In this document: positions 52,020 to 56,718 of the stretch, in pieces
Numbering within the stretch: position 1 is the stretch's first letter
Layout of the letters: every line of letters starts with the position of its first letter
Notes under the pieces: model-generated
The model's database searches: none
The model's input: the letters and a program-made list of their open reading frames with translations, nothing else
Told to the model about the DNA's origin: nothing
Assembly: GCF_003431325.1 (NCBI RefSeq)
Contig: NZ_CP010515.1
Coordinates: forward strand, 1,240,001-1,304,000
Origin: Acidilobus sp. 7A
GTDB taxonomy: Archaea; Thermoproteota; Thermoprotei_A; Sulfolobales; Acidilobaceae
Direction: 5' to 3'
Length of the DNA stretch: 64,000 nt
Position numbers and translations under genes: made by a program

Positions 52020-52041
52020 TGAAAGACTTTTATTGGTAAGT

Positions 52042-52235
52042 GGGTGACCCCCGCCTGATGGGGCTATGCCCCAGGGGCGAGGGGATTAGGCCGTAGATGG
52101 GGGCCCCGCGCCGTTGAGCTTGACGGCCGCCCATGAGCCCACGCTGATTGCCTATGAGGCGCGAGCGAGGTGGGGTCCCTGCGCCCGATAGTGAATGAAG
52201 GCAAGATGTTGAAGTGAGAGCGTAGGGGCAAACGG
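52042..52235 (+). ncRNA. Structured RNA candidate, copy 1 of a 194-bp perfect repeat
   Basis: Identical over 194 nt to 56525-56718. Predicted fold (positions within the element): C7-C14 pairs with 35-43 (one bulged A) enclosing GGGGC-TAT-GCCCC (19-31). ATGGG (56-60) pairs with CCCAT around the GCCGT/ACGGC hairpin. CCCACGCT pairs with AGCGAGGTGGG around a GCC/GGC hairpin. CCCTGCGC pairs with GCGTAGGG near the 3' end. No long sensible protein frame. It matches no tRNA, 5S, SRP, RNase P or C/D pattern I know. Strand is inferred from the promoter. Confidence 0.6.
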
Positions 52236-52441
52236 CAGCTCAGAGGAAAGTCGCACATCATCTGCTCAGAGTCGCTCCACCATCCTCATCGCTGCCACTT
52301 GTCGGGTTGGGGCTTGCACCTTTTACCCTTATGCTATTCTTAAGCGGTTCAGGATTAACTTCCATTTAAAAACGACCACCTGGTAGTCAATGGTTAAGCG
52401 TGATTGAACATGGGAGCTCTCTATCAAGGTCTTAAGGGCTA
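52236..52441. other. Intergenic region between RNA copy 1 and tRNA-Ile2
   Basis: About 200 bases with no convincing gene. CTTTTAC near 52319-52325 could end the RNA transcript. Confidence 0.3.
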
Positions 52442-52515
52442 TGGGCCCGCGGGGGTTTGAACCCCGGACCACCCGGTTATGAGCCGGGCGCTCTACCTGG
52501 CTGAGCTACGGGCCC
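52442..52515 (-). tRNA. tRNA (CAT), probably tRNA-Ile2
   Basis: Acceptor GGGCCCG/CGGGCCC, anticodon stem CCCGG/CCGGG with loop CTCATAA (anticodon CAT), T arm CCGGG..CCCGC-type, discriminator A. CCA is not encoded (A is followed by TAG), unlike the other four tRNAs here. The GGGCCCG acceptor and GAGC D stem resemble archaeal tRNA-Ile rather than elongator Met (usually GCCGGGG) or initiator (AGCGGGG), so this is likely the TiaS substrate. Promoter CTTTAAAAG at about 52541-52549. Confidence 0.85.
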
Positions 52516-52823
52516 CTATTGCGAAATATTCTTGACTAACTTTTAAAGCTTAACTCCGCCATCTTGTCATCAATTGTACGGACTTAGAGCCTCTAGAGAA
52601 GGAAGGCTTTATGCTAGCTTTTGTGAGTAAGGCTAATTATTTTCGTAAAGTTTTAACTTTAAGTTTTATAATATTATATTATTTAGTCTCCGCAGGCAGC
52701 TATAAGTCTCACTATAGTTGCTCACGGGAAGTCGCTGGCCATGAGTTTTAACCCTCTGTCTGCGCTTGGCTGCAGTGCAACGCCCCTACTGTACAAGTTG
52801 CCTGGATAGTCTTAAGAGTCGCT
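52516..52823. other. AT-rich intergenic region
   Basis: About 300 bases, very AT-rich at 52635-52690, holding the tRNA-Ile2 promoter. No open frame or RNA gene recognised. Confidence 0.35.
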
Positions 52824-53909
52824 TTATATGAAAGCTTTATGATCATCCTTCCCATTAAATAAAAGCGTCGCTGATCTCAGGGCCTCCGGCAGGAAGCTTA
52901 TGAGGTCCCTGAGGGTTAGCTCCTGCCTCACATAGAGCTCCCATGCGCGCCTGGGCATGGATGCCAGCAGAGGTGCTGCGAGGCTCAGCCTGTAGCTTGC
53001 CCTCGTCAGAAGCCTTGAAACTATTGCTGACTCCATAATCCGTGATATACTGGTTGAATACCTCTTTAGCGCAAGCTCAAAATTGTAGTCGGAGTTAGCT
53101 ATGGAGCTTGCCAGGGCCTCCGCAGAGACTATTGCGGGCCTGTTGCCCTCGCCGCTCCATGCCATTACGAGGCCTGCCGCCTCCCCAACCTTGATTATAT
53201 CACCGTTAGTCAGTCTAGGGTTAGTGAAGACATTAACTGGCGCCCCCTTGACCTCAACTACGTCGAATGGTCCCTGAAGCCTCTCAGCTAGGTAGGACCT
53301 CACTAGCCCTTGAAGACTAGCCGCGTCATTAACGCCCACGAAGCCGGTGCCAGCGTTTACAAACTTGCCATCACCGTCGAACGGGAATACCCAGTAGAGG
53401 CCCCCTAGCGAGGGCCTGAAGTCGAGTATGGCCTCCTCAGGGCTCCAGGACTTGACCTTAGCTATCACTCTCAGAGCTAGGACCTCGGACGAGGTCTTCA
53501 TAGAGTATGGGCCTCTAGAATCTATAGTGAGAGCCCCTCTCTCCCCGTGCCACCTCTCCCTAAGCACAGCGACGCCAGCCTCGGCTGCAGACCTTCTGAG
53601 CTCCATGATTAGCTTGGGCTTATCTATTATGGCCCACTTAGAGCCTCCTCTCATGTCAACAGTTGTCACGTACTTACCATCAACAAGTATGTGGACATCA
53701 TTAACCACGGTCTTTATAGCTTCATACTCCTTTGCAAGCCTAAGGGGGACCTCCTCAAGGGTTAGCTGCTCACCGCACGGCTTAACATATGAGCTAGGAG
53801 TGGGCTCAAATGCCTTAACCTTGAAGCCGCTCTCGGCCAACCTCAGAGAAAGCAGCGAGCCTGCAAGGCCCATGCCTGCCACTATTATCTCGTCAGAGCT
53901 GATGTCCAT
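52824..53909 (-). CDS. Geranylgeranyl reductase family flavoprotein
   Basis: 361 aa. FAD motif VAGMGLAGSLLSLRLAESG, family PCGEQ segment (KPCGEQLTL), GGLYWVFPFDG (the GGR Y-x-W-x-F-P motif) and GEAAGLVMAWSGEGNRPA. Enzymes of this family saturate isoprenoid chains of archaeal lipids (digeranylgeranylglycerophospholipid reductase). Several paralogues usually exist, so the exact substrate is open. Confidence 0.87.
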   Translation of the reverse strand: MDISSDEIIVAGMGLAGSLLSLRLAESGFKVKAFEPTPSSYVKPCGEQLTLEEVPLRLAKEYEAIKTVVNDVHILVDGKYVTTVDMRGGSKWAIIDKPKLIMELRRSAAEAGVAVLRERWHGERGALTIDSRGPYSMKTSSEVLALRVIAKVKSWSPEEAILDFRPSLGGLYWVFPFDGDGKFVNAGTGFVGVNDAASLQGLVRSYLAERLQGPFDVVEVKGAPVNVFTNPRLTNGDIIKVGEAAGLVMAWSGEGNRPAIVSAEALASSIANSDYNFELALKRYSTSISRIMESAIVSRLLTRASYRLSLAAPLLASMPRRAWELYVRQELTLRDLISFLPEALRSATLLFNGKDDHKAFI

Positions 53910-54256
53910 GAGCCCTCTCTCCGTTACTCTGTGAAAGAGCCAAAAATTAAGGCGCTTTCTTTAAAAGTGGCCGTTTTAAAAGAAGGGCCCCTGCATGCAT
54001 TCAGAAAACATAAATTAATTAACAATTATAGTAAGAAAAATCAGGCTGTGAGCCGTTGGATGCAGAGAGCTGCTAAGCGTTAAGTTTTTCAGCCTTGGCC
54101 CTGGGTTCTGCATCATGAGCTGAGCGCAGGTCGAAGGCAGCTTTATGTCTAGCGTCGTCAGACGCGTGGTGCAGATCAAGAAAAGCTTGCAAGATTAAAA
54201 AAGTGCTTGGGTGCAGGTGGTTCAGGAAGCTTTAAAAAGTAGGCCAAGCTTAGGCG
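53910..54256. other. Intergenic region upstream of the GGR gene
   Basis: About 350 bases. TTTAAAAG elements at 53962-53970 and 53976-53982 may be GGR promoters. No convincing gene or structured RNA is seen. Confidence 0.3.
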
Positions 54257-55608: not shown

Positions 55609-55616
55609 TGAATGAC

Positions 55617-56312
55617 TTAGCCCCTTATTTCTATTAGCGCCTCAGAGTTCTCCGTCACCTTCCAGTCGGTTCCAACAGCAACCACGACAACAGTGCCGGC
55701 TAGACTTGCACCTGCCTTCCTGACAAGCTCCACAAGGGCCCTGAGGGTGTGTCCATGAATACTGAAGTCGTCTACTATCAGCACCTTGGAGTCCTTCGGC
55801 AGCTCCCTCTTAGTGACGTAGAAAACTGTATAGGAAGCAGGGCCTGAGAGGTACATGGTCTCAAGCACTGGCTCCTCTGAGGGCGGACGCTGCTTCCTCG
55901 CAACTACTATGGGCACATTTGCGGTAAGCCCAATGGCTGTTGCAAGGCTTATGCCGCCGGCCTCAGGCGTCATGACGCATGTGAAGGCGCCGTCGAACCT
56001 ACTGACCACGTACTCTGATATTAAAGTTAGCGCCATGGGGTCCAGCGTTACGCCAGCTATATTATAGAAGCCGTTGTAGACCCTTACGGCTTTAGCTACC
56101 AGCGCAGTTATGACTTCCCTTGAGAGCAAGCTGTCCACGATTTTCCTCGCGTTGCCCTCGGAGGGAAGAGTGCTTCCATTTATATAGCGTGACAGCATCG
56201 GCAAAGGCAGACCTGTTATCTTTGAGAGGTCTGTAAGCGGAAAGAAGGCCCTGGCGGCCCTCAGCAATTTTACAGACCTGTACCTAAGCTCGTAGCTGTT
56301 TACGTCACTCAC
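55617..56312 (-). CDS. HTH-PRTase regulator (PyrE-like/GfcR-type)
   Basis: 231 aa. N-terminal helix-turn-helix (LTDLSKITGLPLPMLSRYINGSTLP) fused to a type I phosphoribosyltransferase domain with PRPP loop VLIVDDFSIHGHT. The arrangement matches archaeal OPRT-like transcription regulators such as GfcR of haloarchaea, which control sugar catabolism. Regulation of sugar or nucleotide genes via PRPP-type ligands is a reasonable inference. Confidence 0.85.
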   Translation of the reverse strand: MSDVNSYELRYRSVKLLRAARAFFPLTDLSKITGLPLPMLSRYINGSTLPSEGNARKIVDSLLSREVITALVAKAVRVYNGFYNIAGVTLDPMALTLISEYVVSRFDGAFTCVMTPEAGGISLATAIGLTANVPIVVARKQRPPSEEPVLETMYLSGPASYTVFYVTKRELPKDSKVLIVDDFSIHGHTLRALVELVRKAGASLAGTVVVVAVGTDWKVTENSEALIEIRG

Positions 56313-56491
56313 CTTAGCCCCAATGTAAGCTTCCTCCTAGAGACAATAATAAGGCTCCTTTAAACGCAACTCGTAATACGCGTCAGCAGCATTTAGATCA
56401 CTGCGCTGCACAGGAGAGCTGCCACCTAAGGGTAGCCTTGAGTCTTTTTTTGTGAGACGGGGCTGAACTCTTTTCACATAAATAGAAAAAT

Positions 56492-56501
56492 CCTTTATGG
56501 T
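56492..56501 (+). promoter_or_regulatory. Promoter of structured RNA copy 2
   Basis: CCTTTATGGT centred about 27 nt before 56524. The sequence differs from the copy 1 promoter, but the spacing is the same. Confidence 0.45.
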
Positions 56502-56524
56502 ATTACGCCCATGACAGGCTAAGC

Positions 56525-56718
56525 GGGTGACCCCCGCCTGATGGGGCTATGCCCCAGGGGCGAGGGGATTAGGCCGTAGATGGGGGCCCCGCGCCGTTGA
56601 GCTTGACGGCCGCCCATGAGCCCACGCTGATTGCCTATGAGGCGCGAGCGAGGTGGGGTCCCTGCGCCCGATAGTGAATGAAGGCAAGATGTTGAAGTGA
56701 GAGCGTAGGGGCAAACGG
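56525..56718 (+). ncRNA. Structured RNA candidate, copy 2 of a 194-bp perfect repeat
   Basis: Base-for-base identical to 52042-52235. Both are preceded by TAAG plus one differing base; flanks beyond are unrelated on both sides, with no target-site duplication or terminal inverted repeat apparent. Same predicted fold as copy 1. It could be a duplicated RNA gene kept identical by gene conversion or a non-autonomous mobile element. The equal TATA spacing favours an RNA gene. Confidence 0.6.

Follow-up and report, generated by a model that had tools for sequence, protein, structure and literature searches.

The window, meaning the whole 64,000-nucleotide stretch of DNA analyzed here, contains two direct copies of a short repeat, at 52037-52235 and 56520-56718, which agree at 198 of 199 bases and lie in unrelated flanking sequence. 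The single mismatch is a T/C difference at 52041/56524, so that 52042-52235 and 56525-56718 (194 nt) are exactly alike; the start-to-start distance is 4483, and a perfect match of this length is far beyond chance. The sequence-only reading had described the pair as identical, similarly oriented and differently flanked, and direct comparison bore this out. Its right limit (..CAAACGG) is also the true end of the element, but its left limit is not. When the copies were aligned in the same orientation, the similarity among those without tnpB (here termed solos) started at GGCTGAA.., about 60 nt further left (to ~51974 and ~56461), and stopped abruptly after ..GGGACAAACGG, beyond which every copy was different. 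The features assigned to the two copies are as follows.

51974..52235, plus strand: copy 1 of the solo mini-IS607 element (262 nt from GG to GG; its left end is placed within a few bases from the solo alignment and the empty site in genome G046)
52006..52015, plus strand: TATA-like box of copy 1, TTTTATATTT, ~31 nt before the RNA start (sequence and leader word histogram)
52037..52235, plus strand: scaffold of the copy 1 guide RNA (omegaRNA/reRNA), a homologue of the IS607 tnpB 3' end
52236..52255, plus strand: putative guide of copy 1, CAGCTCAGAGGAAAGTCGCA, the first 20 nt of the right flank (suggested by the loss of similarity after CAAACGG in all copies)
56461..56718, plus strand: copy 2 of the solo mini-IS607 element (258 nt from GG to GG; a run of G leaves the left end ambiguous)
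56494..56500, plus strand: TATA-like box of copy 2, TTTATGG, 26 nt before the RNA start (sequence and leader word histogram)
56520..56718, plus strand: guide-RNA scaffold of copy 2 (pair comparison, BLAST and covariance model)
56719..56738, plus strand: putative guide of copy 2, TTAAAGGACGAAGCCTTCAG, the first bases of the right flank

The solos begin at GG and finish with ACAAACGG, followed in each by a different sequence, the would-be guide; their leaders of ~60 nt contain a TATA-like box, placed 26-31 nt ahead of where the RNA begins. In a position histogram of TATA-like words, the peak fell 25-30 nt ahead of the RNA start for 23 solos drawn from two species and at 31-36 nt for 50 solos from other genomes, and no such word occurred within 70 nt upstream in 16 tnpB-linked copies. 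At the left ends, G was found at -1 in 20/20 and at -2 in 17/20, with anchors that were picked partly by sequence; right ends read ..CGG in nearly all copies, and the left flanks of solos were rich in GGG. The leaders of the two window copies are alike at only 42 of 68 positions (62%), while their scaffolds match at 198/199. Since fresh transposition would have copied the leader as well, gene conversion between two nearby direct copies is the simpler, and probable, explanation of the scaffold identity. Of the recent duplication, gene conversion or mobility first proposed for the pair, mobility and probable gene conversion held up; the identity of the element, its copy number and its left end had been missed.

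Several further observations were made around the insertions. Four solos (L042, L046, L010 and L012) lie at the 3' ends of reading frames, where the GGCTGA left end appears to give a new in-frame stop. On the minus strand at 52238-52293 there is a C/D-box sRNA candidate that has C, D', C' and D boxes and abuts copy 1 with its 3' end; its sequence is conserved in G046. Its sR1 match (20.9 bits) is under the gathering score, and this match was set aside as an identity for the repeat because it belongs to a separate C/D-box candidate. An RNase P assignment based on the GAGGAAAGTC motif downstream of copy 1 was dropped, having no Rfam support. Elsewhere in the window, tRNA genes on the minus strand at 22992-23091 and 19964-20056 were detected by Rfam or by ARAGORN but not by both, perhaps due to introns.

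Relationship of the repeat to IS607 tnpB and TnpA

The genome (one contig of 1,539,049 bases) holds many more than the two copies first reported. BLAST with the repeat found 24 places, and covariance model R1, built from 20 copies, gave 38 matches at E<=2e-5. The best 24 of these (to E 3e-17) comprised 15 solos with a leader, 3 tnpB-linked copies and 6 without a leader; a more degenerate solo, L059, brings the solos to about sixteen. Genome G037, of the same genus, had 7 solos with a leader and 6 matches linked to tnpB; of the latter, L099 and L102 have their flank in common and could be a single locus lying at contig ends. Three copies in the present genome are the 3' ends of tnpB genes (PF07282 matches at 33167, 510108 and 1198793). 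In the intact tnpB, which encodes 463 aa and lies at 32.96-34.4 kb of the genome, the repeat is the last ~200 nt, with the frame running through the RNA to a TAG stop inside the right end, TAGGGACAAACGG. This position, at the 3' end of tnpB and finishing just past the stop, indicates that the repeat is the right end and omegaRNA/reRNA scaffold of an IS607 transposon, an identity that is well supported. The sequence-only reading had held the element to be unknown and had named a match to an insertion sequence as the outcome that would overturn this; the repeat proved to be just such a part. Its statement that the repeat has no protein frame of its own was supported, and the window copies retain coding for a 29-residue stretch 79% like the TnpB C terminus. 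It had also recognized no standard RNA, in agreement with the Rfam search, which gave no match to RAGATH-18 or any other family at gathering or permissive cutoffs. An IS200/IS605 origin was rejected, as the genome has no Y1 TnpA (no match to PF01797).

Elements carrying both tnpA and tnpB and sharing the same right end were found in G037; tnpB is intact in two of them (434 and 437 aa) and broken into two frames in two more. The TnpA of these elements consists of a helix-turn-helix plus a resolvase (serine recombinase) domain and is closest to the solved ISC1926 TnpA (catalytic domain, 6.6e-53), indicating that the parent of the solos was an IS607 element; the left end of the genus solos, compared by eye, is no more than similar to that of the full IS607 element (GGGGC..TTGATAG..TTTATA). 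The TnpB family carries a TNB domain, and D217, E307 and D392 are invariant in 11 homologues. The predicted TnpB fold (mean pLDDT, 64.8) matched those of Cas12f, ISFba1 TnpB and ISDra2 TnpB, including IS607 TnpB 8iaz, and the match is specific despite the moderate quality of the model. No intact cognate-type tnpA adjoining a cognate tnpB was found in the present genome; its two intact tnpA genes adjoin other tnpB types, and the cognate tnpA-tnpB pairs are in G037.

Other tnpB arrangements were also seen. The genes of a second tnpB family (genome positions 388, 562, 666, 324 and 245 kb; L028-L032 and L036) mostly end in TAGGGCGGGGAGGAGGTCA followed by unique sequence, which is probably another right-end guide-RNA family. 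At L014/L045, and at L113/L127 in G037, tnpB copies have a ribbon-helix-helix/antitoxin-like frame directly upstream in place of tnpA. At L121:1880-2263, a tnpA start (PSERLLRSKEV) is fused to mid-tnpB, an internal-deletion IS607 that hints at how solos arise.

Insertion, RNA fold and distribution across the order

The site of copy 1 is empty in G046, where the left flank ..TTACTTAAAAGG is joined directly to GCAGCTCAG.. (target, AAAAGG-GCAGCTC). At the filled site, ..ACATAAGG is the last left-flank sequence ahead of the element, and past ..ACGG the right flank continues with CAGCTCAG. Copy 1 therefore shows an exchange at GG without target duplication, as published for IS607 (PMC10711439), which needs GG and has neither terminal inverted repeats nor target site duplications (PMC6188088). 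Base-level insertion at GG was resolved at this one site; in G046 the two flanks of L041, of L046 and of L051 are near neighbors as well, with diverged junction bases. Both the copy alignment and the empty site agree with the earlier observation that the repeat has no terminal inverted repeat and no target duplication, a signature of an IS607-type element; a miniature inverted-repeat transposable element (MITE) in the strict sense was ruled out on the same grounds. Searches with the guides found no second target above chance in the whole genome, and phage and plasmid collections gave no match. Because the guides match nowhere else in the genome and the copy 1 site predates the insertion, they would have been captured by insertion rather than acquired.

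A covariance analysis of homologues, which the sequence-only reading had proposed, supported a conserved, covarying RNA fold in the solos. When 21 solos were aligned independently with MAFFT, 92.6% of cells paired, and 48 cells changed on both sides, compared with 20.6 in shuffles, which leave the relatedness among solos in place, and 9-18 in slid structures. The signal was strongest in the apical hairpin (columns 129-152) and in the long closing stem, with the 3' arm ..GCGTAGGGAC; the single-sequence folding z-score was weak (-1.5). Between close pairs of solos, 9 stem changes kept pairing and 10 broke it (chance of keeping, 0.37), and single copies thus appear to be decaying. Long-term constraint together with decay of single copies fits the picture of a selfish element.

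Matches to R1 were present in 110 of 197 genomes of the order. The best 60 matches from seven genomes comprised 53 without detectable tnpB upstream and 7 with it, although these solo counts are approximate, as leaders are unclear or fused in at least 4 of the 53 (L336-L339). Each solo-rich genome has leaders of its own type, unrelated in several families, at a similar promoter-RNA spacing, and every such genome sampled keeps at least one tnpB with an R1-type RNA; in some cases, as in G024 (L314), the solo leaders are plainly an IS607 left end. A tree of 48 RNAs placed all 22 solos of the genus in one clade (98/100), which makes that solo lineage older than the two species. Solos of other genera clustered with tnpB copies from the same genome or from related ones, and well-supported branches forced at least 5 changes between the solo and tnpB-linked labels, indicating that solos arose several times. 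When contigs were searched with a 16-nt pattern, matches from Metallosphaera yellowstonensis and a Desulfurococcales metagenome-assembled genome fit the RNA model. Many cyanobacterial matches to the pattern were rejected as family members, since they do not fit the model and the pattern is too short; many exact GCGTAGGGRCAAACGG matches in Leptolyngbya/Nodosilinea contigs (L166, L168, L171 and others) are an unrelated abundant repeat.

Proposed non-autonomous guide-RNA elements and alternative readings

We propose, with a probability of roughly 0.7, that the solos are non-autonomous mini-IS607 elements that are moved by TnpA and guide TnpB, both in trans. Each would be a protein-less miniature of an ISC1926-like IS607 element, consisting of a promoter-bearing left end, the scaffold and the right end ...ACAAACGG, and so would carry all the cis parts for transposition and homing. 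The serine transposase TnpA of full IS607 elements would insert solos at GG dinucleotides, and the leader promoter would drive a transcript through the scaffold and right end into the flank, so that the insertion-site flank would be the guide in each solo RNA. TnpB is known to take ~16-20 nt of right-end flank as its guide and to cut the element-free site beside a left-end TAM, thereby promoting retention (PMC8612924) and drive (PMC11870625). TnpB loaded in trans with a solo RNA may likewise cut the empty site, reading ..GGG of the left flank as the TAM with the guide sequence next to it. Repair, with a chromosome still holding the element as template, would restore or copy the solo. At a filled site, the right end gives AACGG and would therefore differ from the TAM. 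To judge from its layout, each solo seems made to direct the nuclease of another element to the place where the solo itself is inserted. The G-rich left flanks of solos fit the TAMs of an IS607 TnpB that works with RAGATH-18 RNA (AGGAG or GAGGG; PMC11061315), but the left-flank GGG is not independent evidence of a TAM because IS607 TnpA itself requires GGG there.

The need of TnpA for the right end may be all that preserves it in solos, and the solos could then be inert IS607 debris whose RNA has no function. Some copies that are leaderless fragments (L053-L058), and recent changes in which stems are broken and kept with about equal frequency, speak for such debris. Against this reading, which we consider unlikely, several families with unrelated leaders show the promoter and scaffold at the same kind of spacing, covariation over the long term extends outside a coding context, and a tnpB with an R1-type RNA is retained throughout the solo-rich genomes sampled. 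Domestication of the solos as trans-acting guide genes, with their RNAs and TnpB serving host regulation or defense in the manner of TldR, could account for the single well-supported clade of the genus solos and for the L049 solo, which lies at the same place in G037 (L105) with an RNA 94%, a leader 86% and a left flank 81% alike, and with 17 of the first 20 nt of the right flank in common. It is nevertheless very improbable: guides match only their own flank, at a site that predates insertion, the TnpB catalytic triad is kept, and solo copies differ between species. Two identical stretches 4.5 kb apart could also suggest misassembly, or the repeat might belong to a small-RNA family unconnected with TnpB. 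We give these possibilities almost no weight, given the differing flanks and leaders, the many diverged copies and the sister genome with the empty site, as well as the three copies that are tnpB 3' ends.

The proposed trans-mobilized, TnpB-guiding solos share GG-bounded ends, insertion at GG and the lack of inverted repeats and target duplications with the IS607 family (ISC1926, IS1535 and IS607), whose left ends resemble theirs and whose right end is shared by the G037 tnpA-tnpB elements. They differ in lacking tnpA and tnpB and in having the left-end promoter fused straight to the guide-RNA scaffold. A structured right-end scaffold, a flank-derived guide and an IS607 TnpB partner, as inferred for the solos, are also features of TnpB omegaRNA/reRNA (ISDra2, and ISFba1, whose reRNA is RAGATH-18 derived), whereas most copies here are not beside tnpB and have no Rfam match. 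Stand-alone IscB omegaRNAs were reportedly described by Altae-Tran in 2021. Among RAGATH-18 RNAs, 36% do not adjoin tnpB, and the RAGATH-18 scaffold, unlike the present one in linked copies, does not overlap the tnpB coding region (PMC11061315). Such orphan and stand-alone RNAs lie away from the nuclease, as solos do, but by the published descriptions examined only solos are promoter-bearing mobile units with mapped ends. Sulfolobus MITEs (SM1-SM4, SMN1 and SM3A) are likewise short, protein-less, dispersed and mobilized in trans, but they have terminal inverted repeats and direct repeats and no guide RNA (PMC3718332, PMC10969869). In the literature covered, which took in few subscription journals, we found no account of archaeal guide-RNA elements that are bounded by GG, carry a promoter but no protein and have been amplified. 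The separate pieces are known already, namely IS607, the guide RNAs of TnpB, MITEs, and guide RNAs that lie apart from tnpB; their combination in archaeal solos appears to be new.

Extended to the whole order, a proposition that we hold at even odds, self-contained guide-RNA mini-IS607s would have arisen repeatedly as gene-drive units that consist of nothing but an RNA gene and ends, that parasitize TnpA to jump and TnpB to home, and that often far outnumber tnpB. Solos would then be elements that depend on others to move and may take advantage of RNA-guided homing. Cas12 probably descends from TnpB, and a central step in any origin of CRISPR is the change from a single guide next to its nuclease to many guides sharing one nuclease in trans. 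A natural test case for such trans guiding would be offered by genomes in which one or a few tnpB genes accompany ten to forty guide RNAs with promoters of their own, and the system offers an archaeal, GGG-adjacent IS607 TnpB with ready natural guides and targets.
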